Origin: Chloroflexota bacterium
GTDB taxonomy: Bacteria; Chloroflexota; Anaerolineae; Aggregatilineales; Ch27
Assembly: GCA_019873685.1 (NCBI GenBank)
Contig: JAIOAT010000006.1
Location: 62,001 to 126,000 of the forward strand
DNA: 64,000 bases
Direction of reading: 5' to 3'
Made by a program: the position numbers and the translations under genes. This document shows positions 57,097-64,000 of this stretch, piece after piece (position 1 is the first letter of the stretch; each line of letters begins with the position of its first letter). Below the pieces are notes generated by a model. The model searched no databases. It was not told where the DNA came from and was given only the letters and a program-made list of their open reading frames with translations.

Positions 57097-57210
57097 CCGA
57101 ACCCAAATAGTGTACACCTATCCTGACCATCGTAACGTTTTCGTTGAGGCACCGTTAACCGTTCGCACCAATGGACAGGTGTGACATTAGACAAGGGGGG
57201 AACTTTGTCT

Positions 57211-59079
57211 ATGTTACCACGCAAGATAACTGTCGCGGCAGGCGTACTCCTTCTGCTGCTGGCATTCGGCGCACTGGCTGTCTTCGGTCAGGGCGGCGAG
57301 GAACCGGAGGAAGTCCCGATCATCACCACGGCCAGCCGGGTCGTGGGCGTTGGCTCGTATGTGGCCGGGGAAGCCTACGCTGTAGCGGCTGGCGAAGACC
57401 CCGCAGCGCAGCCAATGCAGGCCCTCATCCTCCCCTACGGCATTTACCCCAACATGATGGTGCATACCATCGAAGATTTCGTCCAGCCAGCCCCGGCGGT
57501 CGAGGGCTTCACGTTTGACTGGAGCCTGGAAGCGCCGGATGGCTCCGCTGCCGAGTTGATCGAGGGCACGGTGGCGATCTTCCTGGCCGATGTCGAGGGT
57601 GAATACCTGCTCACCCTGACCGCCACGGACGCCAACGGCAACACCGCCGAGACGACCTGGTCGGTTCTGGCGACCACTTACGTCGGCAGCGGCTACCTGG
57701 AAGGCCCGCAGGAAGCCGAAGATCAGTGCGTTGACTGCCACGAGGACGTCGTCGCTGCCTGGAGCGCCACCGGCCACGCGGATATGTTCACCCGCGCGAT
57801 CGATGGCAAGGCCAGCGATCACTATGGCCCCAACTGCATCAGCTGCCACACCACCGGCTTCAACAACCGTCCGGAAGCCGTCAATGGCGGCTTTGACGAT
57901 GTGGCTGCGGAAGCGGGCTGGTCCTTCCCGGCGGAACTGAAGGAAGGCAACTGGGACGCCATGGTGGCGGAATTCCCGCAGGTGGCTGGCCTGGCCAATA
58001 TCCAGTGCGAAAGCTGCCACGGCCCCGGTTACCTGCATGTCTTTGAGGCCACCCGCCGCGATCCCATGATCTCGCGCGGTCTGGACTACGGCGTTTGCGC
58101 CCAGTGCCATGCGGAAGAGCCGTACCATGTCTTCCCGCAGCAGTGGGAACTGAGCGGCCACGCCCAGAAGAACGCCGAAGCTTTCTGGTATCCGATTGGC
58201 GAGGACCATGCCGCCTGCGTCCGCTGCCATAGCGGCGCCGGTTATATCGACTGGGCGGCTGGCCTGCCGGCGGAAGAGCAGCGCGTGGACTACCAGGTGA
58301 TCACCTGCGCGGTCTGCCACGACCCGCATGACGCCAGCAACCCCAACCAGCTGCGCGTGTTCGACTCGGTCACCCTGCCGGATGGCACTGAGGTTGGTTC
58401 AGCGGGGCCGGCGGCGACCTGCATGAGCTGCCACAACGCCCGCACCAACCCGGTGGCTGTGATCGAGGGTCTGGCCACTGGTGGGCGCTTCAGCACACCG
58501 CACTACTCAACCGCGGCTGAGCTGATGAACGCCACCGGCGGCTACACCTGGGGCGAGACCCTGCCGACCAGCACGCATGGCCGCGTGGTCGAAGACTCCT
58601 GCATCGGCTGCCATATGGGGCCGACGCCCGGCAAGGACGCCGAGGGCAACCCGCTGCCCGGCCATCAGACGGTCGGCCAGCATACCTTCGCCATGGTCAG
58701 CCCGGTGGACGGCACGGAGAACGTAGCCATCTGCCAGCAGTGCCATGACGGTGCGACCAGCTTCGCCTTTGAGGCTCGCCGCGACTACGACGGTGACGGG
58801 ACGATCGAGACCAACCAGGACGAGGTCGCCGGGCTGCAGGACGTCCTGCAGGCCGAACTGGAAGCTCGCGGGGTGGTAGTGCTGCCCTCGTATCCGTACT
58901 TCCAGTTCCCCGAAGGGGCCAGCGCTGACCTGTATGCTGCGGTCTACAACCTGAAGTTCTCCCGTGGCGGTGGTGCGGCGGTGCATAACCTGCGTTACAC
59001 GGTGGCGCTGCTGCAGCTCAGCTACGAAAAGCTGACCGGCTCGCCGGTGCCGGGGGCCACGATCCTGCCGCCCAAGTAG
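57211..59079 (+). CDS. Nine-heme c-type cytochrome with N-terminal Ig-like domain
   Basis: 622 residues from the ATG at 57211 (signal peptide MLPRKITVAAGVLLLLLAFGALAVFGQ; AAGGGGGG upstream); an in-frame GTG at 57181 adds ten odd residues. A beta-rich PKD/Ig-like region (about 30-165) precedes nine CxxCH motifs: CVDCH, CISCH, CESCH, CAQCH, CVRCH, CAVCH, CMSCH, CIGCH and CQQCH. The pattern CxSCHxTGF...CESCHGPG is that of cytochrome c554-like multiheme proteins. The C-terminal ~95 residues contain no heme and may pack against a partner. It is exported and likely accepts or donates electrons in the cell envelope. First of three consecutive multiheme genes. Confidence 0.92.
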   Translation: MLPRKITVAAGVLLLLLAFGALAVFGQGGEEPEEVPIITTASRVVGVGSYVAGEAYAVAAGEDPAAQPMQALILPYGIYPNMMVHTIEDFVQPAPAVEGFTFDWSLEAPDGSAAELIEGTVAIFLADVEGEYLLTLTATDANGNTAETTWSVLATTYVGSGYLEGPQEAEDQCVDCHEDVVAAWSATGHADMFTRAIDGKASDHYGPNCISCHTTGFNNRPEAVNGGFDDVAAEAGWSFPAELKEGNWDAMVAEFPQVAGLANIQCESCHGPGYLHVFEATRRDPMISRGLDYGVCAQCHAEEPYHVFPQQWELSGHAQKNAEAFWYPIGEDHAACVRCHSGAGYIDWAAGLPAEEQRVDYQVITCAVCHDPHDASNPNQLRVFDSVTLPDGTEVGSAGPAATCMSCHNARTNPVAVIEGLATGGRFSTPHYSTAAELMNATGGYTWGETLPTSTHGRVVEDSCIGCHMGPTPGKDAEGNPLPGHQTVGQHTFAMVSPVDGTENVAICQQCHDGATSFAFEARRDYDGDGTIETNQDEVAGLQDVLQAELEARGVVVLPSYPYFQFPEGASADLYAAVYNLKFSRGGGAAVHNLRYTVALLQLSYEKLTGSPVPGATILPPK

Positions 59080-59113
59080 GCGCCGGATCACCCCCAACCG
59101 ATCGTGAGTATCG

Positions 59114-59171
59114 TCTGCCCTCGGGCTGCCCGGCCCGGGGGCAGACCTTCCCGGCGCAAAACGCCGGGAAG
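59114..59171 (+). terminator. Two hairpins between the first and second cytochrome genes
   Basis: TCTGCCC/GGGCAGA (59114-59120, 59139-59145) is followed by a 10-bp perfect stem CTTCCCGGCG/CGCCGGGAAG (59147-59171, loop CAAAA). No T-run, so they probably modulate readthrough or RNA decay within the cluster. Confidence 0.55.
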
Positions 59172-59248
59172 CGCCCGCCAGGACCCGCTACTGCCTGCAC
59201 AGATGCCTGCGCCGATGCCTGGCTTCCCTGCTGGAAGGGCAACCGCTT

Positions 59249-61519
59249 ATGAACCGACTCCGCCGTTTGTTTGCACCATCTCCCGAAGGCCAACTTGCTC
59301 GCCGCCGCGCCCTGCCGTACCTGGGTGTGGGCGCATTCATCGTGGTGGTGTTGCTGGCCATCCCGCCCGCCTGGGAGTATTCCAATTCGGTCCCGTTTTG
59401 CGGTGAAACCTGCCATACTATGCCGCCCGAATACCAGACGTATCTGGTTTCGCCCCACGCCCGCGTGCTCTGCGTGGATTGCCACATCGGGCGCGGCCTG
59501 ATCATCCAGCAGGCTTACCGCAAGGTCGGGCATATGCGCTTGATCTGGGCGACGCTGACCAACAGCTATGAGTACCCGATCCGGGTCAGCAGCATGCGCC
59601 CTGCCCGCGAAACCTGCGAACTCTGCCACTTCCCGGAGAAATTCTCCGATGACAGCCTGCGCGAGCAAAAGCATTTCCGCCAGAATGAGGAGAACACGCC
59701 TTATTCGATCTACCTGCTGATGCACACCGGCGGCGGCAGCGCCCGCCAGGGGCTGGGCTTTGGCATCCACTGGCATGTGGAAAACCCGATCGCGTACATC
59801 GCCACCGATGAGCTGGATCAGGAGATCCCCTGGGTGCGCGTCACTGCCGCCGACGGCACGACCACGGAGTATGTGGCCCAGGACGCCGAGATCGACCTGG
59901 CGAACCTCGATCAGTACGAGATCAAGCAGATGGACTGCATGACCTGCCACAACCGTATCTCCCACCTGATCGAGCCGCCGCGCCAGCTGGTTGATAGCGC
60001 CCTCAACCGCGGGGATATCCCCCGCAGCGTGCCCAACATCCGCTATATGGCCGAGACTCTGCTTGGCCAGTCGTACGAGTCGGCGGAAGAAGCCCGCGCC
60101 GCCTTTGAGACGCTCCACGACTACTACCGCGACCTGTACCCGGCCTTTTACGAACAGAACGCCGATCAGGTGGCGCAGACCGTCCAGGTTCTTGAGGAAC
60201 TGTGGACGGCCAACAACTATGTGGAGCAGGAACTGAACTGGCAGACCCACCCGGATAACATCGGCCACCGCGACTGGCCGGGGTGCTTCCGTTGCCATGA
60301 CGGCCAACATTTCAACGCGGAAGGCGAAGCTGTGCGGCTGGAATGCAACCTGTGCCATTCCATCCCGCTGGTGGTCAGGCCGACCGACATCGAGCCGGTC
60401 ATGCCGCTGACTACCGGCCTGGAGCCAGAATCCCACCTGGATAGCACCTGGATCAGCCGCCACCACAACGAATTTGACCGCACCTGCGCCAACTGCCACA
60501 CGGTGGAAAACCCCGGCGGGACGAGCGATACCAGCTTCTGCTCCAACAGCGCCTGCCACGGCGTGCGCTGGAAATTCGCCGGGTTTGACGCTCCGGCTCT
60601 GGCCCTGGAGATGGGCCTGCTGCAGGAAGCGCCGGGGGTGGAAGTCGCCGGTGGGGTGCAGCCGGAGGAGCTGACCTACCAGGACCTGCGTCCGGTGCTA
60701 CAGGCCGAATGCGGTGAGTGCCACGGCAGCAATCCCACCGCCGGGCTGCAGGTGACCGACTACGCTGCCCTGCTGGCTGGCAGCCGGAACGGGCCGGTGC
60801 TGGTTCCGGGCGATGTGGAAGGCAGCCGCATTTTCACTGTGCTCGGCGCGGGGCACTTTGGCGCGCTGACCACCGCCCAGCTGGAACTGCTGCGGGCGTG
60901 GGTGGCCAATGGCGCCCCGGAAGGCCAGCCGCCCGCCGCCGTTGCCGCCACCTACCAGGCCATCCAGCCCATCCTGGCTGAGACCTGCGGCGAGTGTCAT
61001 GGCCCGGACGATCCTACCCGCGGTCTGAACGTGACCGAGTACGCCACGCTGATGGCCGGCGGGCGCAGCGGCCCAGCGGTCACGCCCGGCGACGTGCAGG
61101 GCAGCCTGATCATCGAGGTGCTGGAGGAGGGGCACTTCGCCCGCCTCACTGACGAGCAGATGGCCCTGCTGCGTGAGTGGATCGCCAGTGGCGCACCGGA
61201 GACAGAAGCAGGCGCTGCCCCGGCCCCGGCGGAAGGCGGGGAGGGCGCGGAAGCCGCGCTGACCTACGCCGCCATCCAGCCGATCCTGACCCGGCGTTGT
61301 GGCGAGTGCCACGGTGAAACCAACCCGGCCCGCGGGCTACGGCTGACCGACTACGACGGCCTGCTGGCTGGCAGCGCCATCGGGCCGGTGATCGTCCCCG
61401 GCGAACCGGGTAAGAGTTACCTGCTGCAGCTGCTGCAGGAAGGGCATCCCGGCCAGCTGGCCCGGTCTGAGTACATCCTGCTGCGGGACTGGATCGCCCA
61501 GGGTGCGCCCCGCGAGTGA
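59249..61519 (+). CDS. Multiheme cytochrome c: NapC/NrfH-like N-terminus plus three planctomycete-type heme modules
   Basis: 756 residues. One membrane anchor (about 24-44) without cleavage. The anchor is followed by FCGETCHTMPPEY, a CX3CH motif with a following Met, and by CVDCH, CELCH and CMTCH, as in NapC/NirT/NrfH quinol dehydrogenases. Then CFRCH, CNLCH, CANCH and CSNSACH (CX4CH). The C-terminal ~270 residues are three tandem ~90-residue modules, each with YxxIQPILxxxCGECHG, GLxVTDYxxLLAG and LLRxWIAxGAP, the planctomycete cytochrome (PSCyt1) type. In total 11 potential sites, nine canonical. It could draw electrons from quinol and pass them outward. Second of three genes. Confidence 0.9.
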   Translation: MNRLRRLFAPSPEGQLARRRALPYLGVGAFIVVVLLAIPPAWEYSNSVPFCGETCHTMPPEYQTYLVSPHARVLCVDCHIGRGLIIQQAYRKVGHMRLIWATLTNSYEYPIRVSSMRPARETCELCHFPEKFSDDSLREQKHFRQNEENTPYSIYLLMHTGGGSARQGLGFGIHWHVENPIAYIATDELDQEIPWVRVTAADGTTTEYVAQDAEIDLANLDQYEIKQMDCMTCHNRISHLIEPPRQLVDSALNRGDIPRSVPNIRYMAETLLGQSYESAEEARAAFETLHDYYRDLYPAFYEQNADQVAQTVQVLEELWTANNYVEQELNWQTHPDNIGHRDWPGCFRCHDGQHFNAEGEAVRLECNLCHSIPLVVRPTDIEPVMPLTTGLEPESHLDSTWISRHHNEFDRTCANCHTVENPGGTSDTSFCSNSACHGVRWKFAGFDAPALALEMGLLQEAPGVEVAGGVQPEELTYQDLRPVLQAECGECHGSNPTAGLQVTDYAALLAGSRNGPVLVPGDVEGSRIFTVLGAGHFGALTTAQLELLRAWVANGAPEGQPPAAVAATYQAIQPILAETCGECHGPDDPTRGLNVTEYATLMAGGRSGPAVTPGDVQGSLIIEVLEEGHFARLTDEQMALLREWIASGAPETEAGAAPAPAEGGEGAEAALTYAAIQPILTRRCGECHGETNPARGLRLTDYDGLLAGSAIGPVIVPGEPGKSYLLQLLQEGHPGQLARSEYILLRDWIAQGAPRE

Positions 61520-61546
61520 TCCGCAGTGCGCGACGATATCCGCTTT

Positions 61547-61588
61547 GCCCCCGGGCTGCTGGCGCTTTCCGGCTGGCGACCCGGGGGC
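61547..61588 (+). terminator. Stem-loop between the second and third cytochrome genes
   Basis: GCCCCCGGG at 61547-61555 and CCCGGGGGC at 61580-61588 pair over 9 bp around a 24-base loop. There is no T-run. The gap of 232 bp may carry its own promoter for the next gene, but no clear hexamers were found. Confidence 0.45.
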
Positions 61589-61751
61589 CTTGCCGCCCGG
61601 TAGAAGCAACAACCTGTCATCCCAGGGCGGTATTATCGTCACTCGACAGGCCGCGGGCCTTCAGGCTACCATTATCCAAGATGACCGTTTTCCTCTAAAC
61701 GCTCCGAACCGCTCTGTTTGAGGCACACCGGATAGGGGGGAAGTCTCAACC

Positions 61752-64000
61752 ATGCGACCCTTGCGCCTTTTGATCGCTGGCCTGATATTCGCCGGGCTGG
61801 GCCTGCTGCTCATCAGCGGCATCGTGGCCGCCCAGGGCGGCGATGAAGCGACCTATATCGGCGGCGGCGAGTGCCGATCCTGTCACCGCGGCCTCAGCCG
61901 CGACTACGCGGGCACGCTGCACGCCCGCGCTCTGCAGGATACCCGCTCGGATAAGACCGCCATCCTGGCCGATTTTACGGCAGGCGAGGATGTGCGCACG
62001 GTGCTGCTCCCTGGCGAGGACGCGCCGCGCCCCTTCACCGCTGAGGATATCGCCTATGCCGTGGGCGGCGGGCGCTACCTGCAGCGTTACCTGGTCGAGG
62101 CCGGCGATGGCCGCTATATCGTCCTGCCCGCTCAGTGGAATGTGGCAGCCGCCGCCTGGGAGCCGCTGGCGCTGGCCGAGGAATGGCCTGCCCCGGCCTA
62201 TGACTGGGGCGCTAACTGCGCTTATTGCCACACCACCGCCCTCGACACGGCGAGCTATACCTGGCTGGAGGACGGCGTGCAGTGCGAGGCCTGCCACGGG
62301 CCGGGCAGCGTCCATGCGGCCCTGGCCGACGCGGCGGGCGTCCGCCCCCGGCCAGCGGAACTGGCGGCCATCCGCAGCGCGATTGTCAACTCGCCCGACC
62401 CGCAGATCTGCGGCCAGTGCCACGCCGTCGGCCAGGCTCCCGACGGCCATCCCTACCCGGTCGGTTACCGGCCCGGCGAACCGCTGGACGAATCCTATAC
62501 CATCAGCACGCCGGGGGATGAGTCCGATCACTGGTGGCCCACCGGCCACGCCGCCGACGTAGGTATGCAGTTCAATGAGTGGTTCCATTCCGCCCACGCC
62601 CGCGCCCTGGAAACCGCCCGCAGCAGCGATTATGCCGACGAGACCTGTCTGAGCTGCCACAGCGGCGACTATCGCTATGTGGAGCGCGTGCGCGGCTGGT
62701 TCGCCGAGGGCAGTCTGGACGGCGACCCGCCGGAGGCGCTGACGCTCCAGACGGCGGCGCTGGGCGTTGTCTGCGGGACCTGCCACAACCCTCATGCCGA
62801 GGGTGCGCCGGACTTCTTCCTGGTCGAAGAGCCGGAGGCGCTGTGCGCTGAATGTCACAGCAACACCGGCGAAAGCGTCACCCATCACCCGCAGCTTGAC
62901 CTCTATCAGGGTCTGCCGCTGGTAGCCGAAGTCGCGCCGATCCCCTCCGCCCACTTCAGCGCGGAAGACGGGCCGGATTGCCTGTCCTGCCATATGGCCC
63001 GCCTGCCGGTCGAGGGTGGGGCGCTGGCCACGCACAGCCTGCTGGCCATCCTGCCCGGCGCACCGGAAGCGCTGGAAGCGGCAGCTGGCTGCACCACCTG
63101 CCACAACGCCATCGGCGCGGCGCAACTGGCGAGCTTCATCAGCGATGTACAGGCGGACTTCAGCGCCCGCCTTGAGGCAGCCCGCGCCGCCCTGGGGGCG
63201 GACGCGCCGGGCTGGGTGGAGGGCGCGCTGGACGCCGTCGAAAGCGACGGCAGCGGCGGCCTGCACAACTACTCCTACAGCCAGGCCCTGCTCAGCGCCG
63301 CTGAAGCTGCCCTGGGGATCGGGCCACAGGCTCCTGCTGCCGCGGTGTACGAGGCGCCGCCCAACTGGGTGGAATTGCCGCTGCTGGGTATGGTCGAAGG
63401 GCTGACCCTGCCCGGCCTGCTGGCCGGTGGCGCCGGGACGCTGATCCTGCTGGTCGGCGGCGTGATTCTGCTGTTCGGCAGGGACTGGCGGCAGCTGGTG
63501 GGCATCCTGCTCATTCTGGCGGCGATCGCCCTGGCGACCGCCCCCTGGTGGGCGCTGGAACGCCCGCGGCAGGTGGCCCGCGCCAGCGGCGACGACGGCT
63601 ACTGCCTGATGTGCCACGCCGGGGAGCGCACCCTGACGCTGGCTGACGGCAACACGATCAGCCTGCGGGTTGATCCGGCGGCGATGGACGCTTCCGTGCA
63701 CGGCGTGGAAAGCAGCCGGGGGCGGCTGGGCTGCCTGGACTGCCACAGCGCGGCGGCCTTCCCGCACGGCCCGGCCCCGACCAGCCTGCGCGAGTACCGC
63801 CTGGCCGGGGTGCCGCTCTGCGCCGGCTGCCACCAGGACTCGCTGGGTCACTACGAGGAAGTACGGGCGAAGAACATCGCGGTCGGCTGCGTCGATTGCC
63901 ACGGCGCGCATGCCGTCGCTCCGGCGGAGACGCTCAGCCAGACTCCGCCGCCCCGCCCACGTGAGATCGCGCCCGGCGCATCCGCGCTGGAGGCGACGCC
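61752..64000 (+). CDS. Multiheme cytochrome c with heme-membrane-heme layout (cut by window end)
   Basis: At least 749 residues; the frame is open to the right edge with no stop codon. ATG at 61752 follows GGGGGGAAG. Signal peptide (about 1-28, ends VAAQ). The first part has CRSCH, CAYCH, CEACH, CGQCH, CLSCH, CGTCH, CAECH, CLSCH and CTTCH. Two membrane helices follow (about residues 552-575 and 582-600), then CLMCH, CLDCH, CAGCH and CVDCH: 13 hemes so far. Two helices put both heme domains on the same side, so the protein is anchored in the middle of its length. YIGGGECRSCHRGLSRDYAGTLHARA is c554/c7-like. It is likely an envelope electron-transfer hub with the two upstream cytochromes. Confidence 0.9.
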   Translation, partial: MRPLRLLIAGLIFAGLGLLLISGIVAAQGGDEATYIGGGECRSCHRGLSRDYAGTLHARALQDTRSDKTAILADFTAGEDVRTVLLPGEDAPRPFTAEDIAYAVGGGRYLQRYLVEAGDGRYIVLPAQWNVAAAAWEPLALAEEWPAPAYDWGANCAYCHTTALDTASYTWLEDGVQCEACHGPGSVHAALADAAGVRPRPAELAAIRSAIVNSPDPQICGQCHAVGQAPDGHPYPVGYRPGEPLDESYTISTPGDESDHWWPTGHAADVGMQFNEWFHSAHARALETARSSDYADETCLSCHSGDYRYVERVRGWFAEGSLDGDPPEALTLQTAALGVVCGTCHNPHAEGAPDFFLVEEPEALCAECHSNTGESVTHHPQLDLYQGLPLVAEVAPIPSAHFSAEDGPDCLSCHMARLPVEGGALATHSLLAILPGAPEALEAAAGCTTCHNAIGAAQLASFISDVQADFSARLEAARAALGADAPGWVEGALDAVESDGSGGLHNYSYSQALLSAAEAALGIGPQAPAAAVYEAPPNWVELPLLGMVEGLTLPGLLAGGAGTLILLVGGVILLFGRDWRQLVGILLILAAIALATAPWWALERPRQVARASGDDGYCLMCHAGERTLTLADGNTISLRVDPAAMDASVHGVESSRGRLGCLDCHSAAAFPHGPAPTSLREYRLAGVPLCAGCHQDSLGHYEEVRAKNIAVGCVDCHGAHAVAPAETLSQTPPPRPREIAPGASALEAT

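Follow-up and report, generated by a model that had tools for sequence, protein, structure and literature searches.

The ImdcA–PdcA–CwcA–OcwA pathway of Thermincola connects a quinol oxidase to a surface nonaheme cytochrome across a Gram-positive-type envelope and uses no porin (PMC7911101). OcwA of Thermincola potens (PDB entry 6I5B) is a nonaheme terminal reductase of the cell surface, in which the open hemes 2 and 5 lie under the His–His pairs 281/282 and 380/381 (PMC6703420). Homologues of ImcH, the inner-membrane quinol oxidase of Geobacter, combine an atypical CX3CH motif beside the membrane part with five to nine CX2CH motifs; the Geobacter protein has three helices, and that of Anaerolinea thermophila has one (PMC6295460). 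Among the Chloroflexota, Ardenticatena is a monoderm with both anodic and cathodic electrode activity (PMC5808234), and Chloroflexota of bioanode communities carry large multiheme proteins; for Anaerolineae, large multiheme cytochromes and a lack of porin complexes are noted, with no conduit named (PMC7399161). Here, we compared these systems with three successive multiheme cytochrome genes, A, B and C, at the right-hand end of a 64,000-nucleotide window (bases 62001–126000 of the 129,768-base contig JAIOAT010000006.1) from a genome of the class Anaerolineae, order Aggregatilineales, phylum Chloroflexota (G000; 4.1 Mb, 97% complete). Judged from its genes alone, the trio would form a porin-free conduit from quinol to the cell surface in a probably monoderm bacterium, built of OcwA-like and ImcH-like parts; we give this reading a probability of about 0.62. 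The three genes and their parts are as follows.

57211–59079, + strand: gene A, exported, with one N-terminal hydrophobic helix, a PKD/Ig-like front and a predicted nonaheme domain of the OcwA superfamily; 9 CXXCH motifs
57340–57675, + strand: PKD/Ig-like β-sandwich of A (residues 54–165 counted from the GTG at 57181); profile match to KIAA0319-like PKD chains (E 6e-7), Foldseek match to PKD
57727–59037, + strand: nonaheme domain of A; helical C-terminus with an HN motif common to OcwA; profile match to 6i5b (E 2.7e-15)
59249–61519, + strand: gene B, a NapC/ImcH-like multiheme cytochrome anchored in the membrane; 11 heme motifs, three of them in monoheme PSCyt1 domains
59309–59365, + strand: single transmembrane helix of B (residues 21–39)
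59399–59416, + strand: atypical CX3CH of B (CGETCH, residues 51–56), adjoining the helix; an ImcH hallmark (PMC6295460)
60539–60559, + strand: atypical CX4CH of B (CSNSACH, residues 431–437), kept in 12 of 13 relatives
60677–61516, + strand: three PSCyt1 monoheme domains of B (hemes at residues 488, 580 and 684)
61752–64046, + strand: gene C, 764 residues, running 46 base pairs (bp) past the window end at 64000; signal peptide, OcwA-like nonaheme domain, two-helix membrane hairpin and tetraheme tail; 13 CXXCH motifs
61845–63323, + strand: OcwA-like nonaheme domain of C (residues 32–524); PDB 6i5b, E 8.4e-45; Foldseek 6i5b, E 2.6e-19
63399–63551, + strand: membrane hairpin of C (residues 550–600, helices 550–568 and 582–600), where two genes, separate in relatives, are joined
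63603–63902, + strand: tetraheme tail of C (hemes at residues 618, 661, 690 and 713), equivalent to the first four hemes of a neighbouring nonaheme gene in relatives

The nonaheme domain of C aligns end to end with the whole OcwA chain, and 141 of the 444 aligned residues are identical (32%). The second match, less complete, is to OmhA, the undecaheme S-layer cytochrome of Carboxydothermus ferrireducens (6qvm, 6e-24), which is likewise placed at a monoderm cell surface; OmhA has eleven hemes, however, and its sequence alignment with C is good in the second half only. When 27 Anaerolineae homologues of C are aligned with OcwA, the nine CXXCH motifs follow the order of those in OcwA and are kept in 26 or 27 of the 27 homologues, and seven further OcwA histidines are kept in at least 26. 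The His–His pair over heme 5 is also kept (H378/H379 in C). In contrast, the heme-2 pair is replaced by V270/G271 in C and mostly by other non-histidine residues in the remaining homologues, and where OcwA has a methionine at chain position 373, a histidine is invariant across the homologues of C. The AlphaFold model of C, which contains no hemes and is of low confidence (mean predicted local distance difference test score, pLDDT, of 60), suggests a β insert (strands 100–138), C-terminal helices as in OcwA (456–479, 487–498 and 507–521) and the two-helix hairpin. Foldseek places OcwA first for this model, OmhA second and then, weakly, NrfA and MccA; VIA-align also returns OcwA and then OmhA. 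Since the heme-2 pair is replaced, gene C is, by its alignment, OcwA-related and not OcwA proper. The open literature that we searched held no paper describing an OcwA relative in Chloroflexota.

Unlike OcwA, the nonaheme domain of C is fused to a membrane hairpin and a tetraheme tail. In most relatives, the parts of C are divided between two neighbouring genes. The product of one is OcwA-like, has nine hemes and usually bears a C-terminal helix; the other product, also a nonaheme protein, has its helix at the N-terminus, and its first four hemes match the tail of C. The two separate reading frames overlap by 4 bp at two loci (L034 and L038), and the next gene is often that of a b561-type cytochrome with a monoheme domain. 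Compared with these split relatives, C has the two helices as its hairpin, lacks the final five hemes of the second protein and has no b561 gene next to it. The fused form is found in three genomes of two genera (G000, G001 at 93% and G002 at 52% identity), and a further member of the same family (G004) has the parts in separate genes. We infer that the fused C is the derived state. The split arrangement recalls CbcL of Geobacter, a nonaheme c-type cytochrome with a b-type membrane part: a nine-heme gene followed by a b561-type gene stands beside B in relatives, as in a split CbcL (a likeness of anatomy; PMC6295460). The window differs in having no b561 gene, and four of the hemes stay fused to C.

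Gene A begins at the ATG at 57211 behind a GGGGGG ribosome site, with an alternative in-frame GTG at 57181. A profile of 15 A proteins matches OcwA, cytochrome c554 and NrfA and, at the front, PKD domains, and profile–profile comparison of the A and C families gives 99.9% (E 1e-34). Its nine CXXCH motifs are kept in four or five of five relatives. The AlphaFold model of A is confident in the PKD part, for which the best Foldseek matches are PKD domains, and poor in the heme part. The heme-part assignment is therefore taken from the profile matches, since this low-confidence model gave Foldseek matches for the PKD part only. On these matches, A is predicted to join C in the OcwA superfamily, as a second member with a PKD front. 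Unlike NrfA nitrite reductase, both A and C contain CXXCH motifs only and lack the catalytic CXXCK.

For gene B, the score against PF03264 (NapC/NirT) is 30.3 bits, above the cut-off of 24.1, and the NrfH structure 2j7a is matched with an E value of 3e-8. As described for Geobacter ImcH (PMC6295460), B has a NapC-like start, a CX3CH motif by the helix and further CX2CH motifs, and it clusters with other c-type cytochrome genes; it differs in having one helix instead of three N-terminal helices, an additional CX4CH motif and PSCyt1 beads as its tail. Its first seven heme sites, CX3CH included, are kept in all 13 relatives, and C51, C55 and H56 are invariant in 20 sequences. An Actinomycetota homologue (L008), 37% identical to B, shows the full ImcH anatomy with three helices, one CX3CH and six CX2CH motifs. 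The combined matches support B as a putative NapC-type quinol-oxidase relative with the ImcH hallmark. The number of PSCyt1 copies ranges from one to four among the relatives of B, and some copies are near-identical in L051 and L002; together, these features suggest that the bead string grew more than once, by repeated recent duplication of the heme domain. Larger proteins also occur in this setting, namely a B homologue of 1469 residues with 22 hemes (L088, 9242–13651), a 17-heme B homologue (L080, 9226–11709) and a 32-heme protein near B (L082, 3083–6829). The NCBIfam names DmsE, UshA-like and HmcA were set aside, all being far below their own cut-offs.

The initial annotation of the window, made from its sequence, had counted 9, 11 and at least 13 heme motifs in three exported or anchored proteins on one strand, with gaps of 169 bp (A–B) and 232 bp (B–C). 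These values stand: A has nine CXXCH, B has nine CXXCH with one CX3CH and one CX4CH, and C has exactly 13 CXXCH, giving exactly 33 sites. Shuffled proteins contain a mean of 0.02–0.04 CXXCH and a maximum of two, and this result, together with the conservation of the motifs in relatives, shows that the heme sites are real. No CXXCH was found in the other window reading frames of at least 250 residues. The domains named at that stage also hold, the Ig-like front of A being PKD-like by both profile and model, the PSCyt1 domains of B being three in number and the mid-protein anchor of C being the hairpin. A further suggestion, that a catalytic reductase gene might lie beyond the right edge, is not supported. 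The contig extends 3.7 kb to the right of the window and was read to its end. A strong hairpin lies about 15 bp 3′ of the stop codon of C (−40 kcal/mol against −21.7 for shuffles, z −5.75); it was found by eye and by folding, no terminator having been called by the promoter and terminator scan. The genes beyond it are antisense and read towards it, encoding an unknown protein, a DNA alkylation repair enzyme and a DUF1706/DinB protein. The gene unit ends with C, and given this end, the hairpin and the unrelated antisense genes, no catalytic gene follows in the sequence to the right of the window edge. Upstream of the trio are genes for a glycoside hydrolase of family 3 and for a GNAT-domain protein resembling acyl-CoA synthetases. 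No known reductase that could explain the whole set adjoins the trio, either among these upstream neighbours or in the 3.7 kb to the contig end.

The B family is present in 61 of the 199 genomes of the class (E 1e-30 or better), mostly beside other multiheme genes. A and B are adjacent in five genomes (G000, G001, G002, G003 and G014) and stand in the order B–A in G015, where the run is a C-like gene with 13 hemes, an iron–sulfur (FeS) protein, NrfD, B and A. At many other loci, including that of Anaerolinea thermolimosa (L007), a 10-heme distant relative of A takes its place, and A is divergent from a C homologue in G040, G050, G056 and G058. We also compared the neighbourhoods of 20 loci chosen by B alone, where the counts are lower bounds, as some contigs end nearby: another cytochrome with at least five hemes lies within 3 kb of B at 16 or more loci, a C-like gene near B at 15 or more and a b561-type cytochrome at 13 or more. 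The search for the same trio in other genomes, which the initial annotation had proposed, gave A–B, in part with C, within the family; elsewhere, B or the C homologue is accompanied by A or a 10-heme protein. At one locus (L037, 8378–11768, in G022), a NiFe-hydrogenase-like operon follows a set of 17-heme, FeS and NrfD genes with a C-like cytochrome.

No Omp85 was detected in the host genome, and 7 of 14 control genomes have it. Since Omp85 is missing, the host is probably monoderm, and a conduit to its surface would need no porin. CcmF/CcmC-type genes for cytochrome c maturation are present. The following path can be proposed from family membership and anatomy. First, B, held by its one helix in the cytoplasmic membrane, would oxidize menaquinol near the first, CX3CH-bound heme, as is thought for Geobacter ImcH. 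Electrons would then pass through the outer hemes of B and along its three monoheme beads. Next, they may reach C, whose nonaheme domain the two-helix hairpin would keep on the outer side of the membrane, flanked by the tetraheme tail, and also the exported A, whose PKD-like front could bind the wall, the S-layer or neighbouring cells. Finally, C and A would deliver electrons to extracellular acceptors such as Fe(III) or Mn(IV) minerals, humics, flavin shuttles or partner cells.

A quinol-to-surface route had been proposed for the locus at the outset, and the NapC-type B with its ImcH hallmark and the OcwA-type terminal-reductase domain of C support it. The locus had also been set apart from the Mtr, Omc and Pcc conduits by its mix of domains. 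That separation holds against these porin–cytochrome systems, with no porin gene in the cluster and no Omp85 in the genome, but the novelty was overstated, since the monoderm Thermincola pathway is a nearer precedent. The trio differs from this pathway in its middle proteins, in a terminal protein that is held in the membrane and in the addition of a second, PKD-fronted nonaheme. It also differs from the NrfD complexes of the Hmc, Qrc and Dsr types; FeS and NrfD genes stand beside C-type cytochromes in relatives and beside an octaheme on another host contig, but not in the window trio. The combination with a fused, membrane-anchored terminal protein looks new, and its parts are of known kinds.

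Several observations weigh against this electron-export reading. The superfamily of A and C also includes nitrite, hydroxylamine and sulfite enzymes, the heme-2 pocket of OcwA is lost in C, and confidence is low for both AlphaFold models (mean pLDDT 59–60). B is ImcH-like by anatomy, its comparison with the Geobacter protein having been made solely against the published description. Furthermore, the cell has electron outlets besides the trio, namely one heme-copper oxidase, an octaheme–FeS–NrfD operon on contig 24 of the same kind as that beside B in L069, L077 and L078, and a PhsA-like molybdenum operon with its own nonaheme cytochrome on contig 67.

The main rival is a reductase of small nitrogen or sulfur compounds (nitrite, hydroxylamine, sulfite or similar), in which B would pass quinol electrons to A or C as open-heme enzymes for respiration or detoxification. 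It holds this place because C keeps the heme-5 pocket. The initial annotation had seen no catalytic subunit in view; this is correct in that no reductase gene adjoins the trio, but A and C themselves belong to the superfamily of NrfA, MccA, HAO and OcwA, and of the two open-heme pockets of OcwA, one persists in C. OcwA itself is slow on nitrite and active on hydroxylamine (PMC6703420), and the host genome has no match to NrfA by PF02335, so that such a role would be free. Against this, the CXXCK heme is missing and the heme-2 His–His pair is lost, among solved structures the surface cytochrome OcwA, and not NrfA, is the nearest relative by a wide margin, and a B tail of one to four beads, with up to 22 motifs in relatives, fits a wire more than an enzyme. 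We consider a small-molecule reductase unlikely. Alternatively, the chain could run inward, carrying electrons from Fe(II), a partner cell or a cathode to quinone or to the heme-copper oxidase. Transfer in both directions by Ardenticatena (PMC5808234), the oxidase genes of the genome and a weak match of B to FoxE (E 0.002) would fit such an entry route, but the FoxE match is confined to the PSCyt1 beads, and we regard inward flow as improbable. Least probable of all, C might be what remains of the larger b561- or NrfD-coupled module carried by the rest of the class, having lost its quinol partner and now serving only as an electron store or relay on the face of the membrane. In favour of this, C has no b561 gene next to it and lacks the tail protein's final five hemes, both of which occur in G004 and many others, and the heme-copper oxidase could be the main outlet. 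Against it, C retains every one of its 13 heme sites, two genera share the fused form at 52% identity and the octaheme–FeS–NrfD operon survives elsewhere in the genome.

Other redox loci of the host were seen in passing. Near the octaheme–FeS–NrfD operon of contig 24, an 849-residue protein with six rhodanese domains lies beside a 10-heme cytochrome (L101, 3719–7670). The operon of contig 67 (L106, 2861–11364) encodes a triheme protein, the PhsA-like molybdenum enzyme, an FeS protein, an FdhC-type cytochrome b, a cytochrome c, an ExtM-like nonaheme and a Rieske-like protein. Two Tat-exported proteins of the FAD (flavin adenine dinucleotide) type, at least one of them flavocytochrome-like, flank a pentaheme NapC-type protein on contig 14 (L103, 6853–11201), and a formate dehydrogenase alpha subunit on contig 9 has one in-frame TGA and is probably a selenocysteine enzyme (L105, 4573–6783).

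The conduit proposed for the trio brings together, in a single conserved set, OcwA's role as surface terminal reductase and the part that ImcH plays in oxidizing quinol to export electrons. At somewhat less than even odds, and thus tentatively, the scheme may extend to a class-wide, porin-free conduit of the Anaerolineae, in which an ImcH-like quinol oxidase with expandable monoheme beads feeds OcwA-like terminal cytochromes; in the present lineage, the terminal reductase would be fused to its own membrane tetraheme, giving one protein that reaches from the membrane face to the surface. Anaerolineae are common in sediments, in sludge and on anodes. The conserved set, B with A, C, b561 or NrfD partners, would provide markers by which electron export could be tested in a monoderm phylum, and it connects ImcH with OcwA, two known proteins studied in unrelated bacteria.

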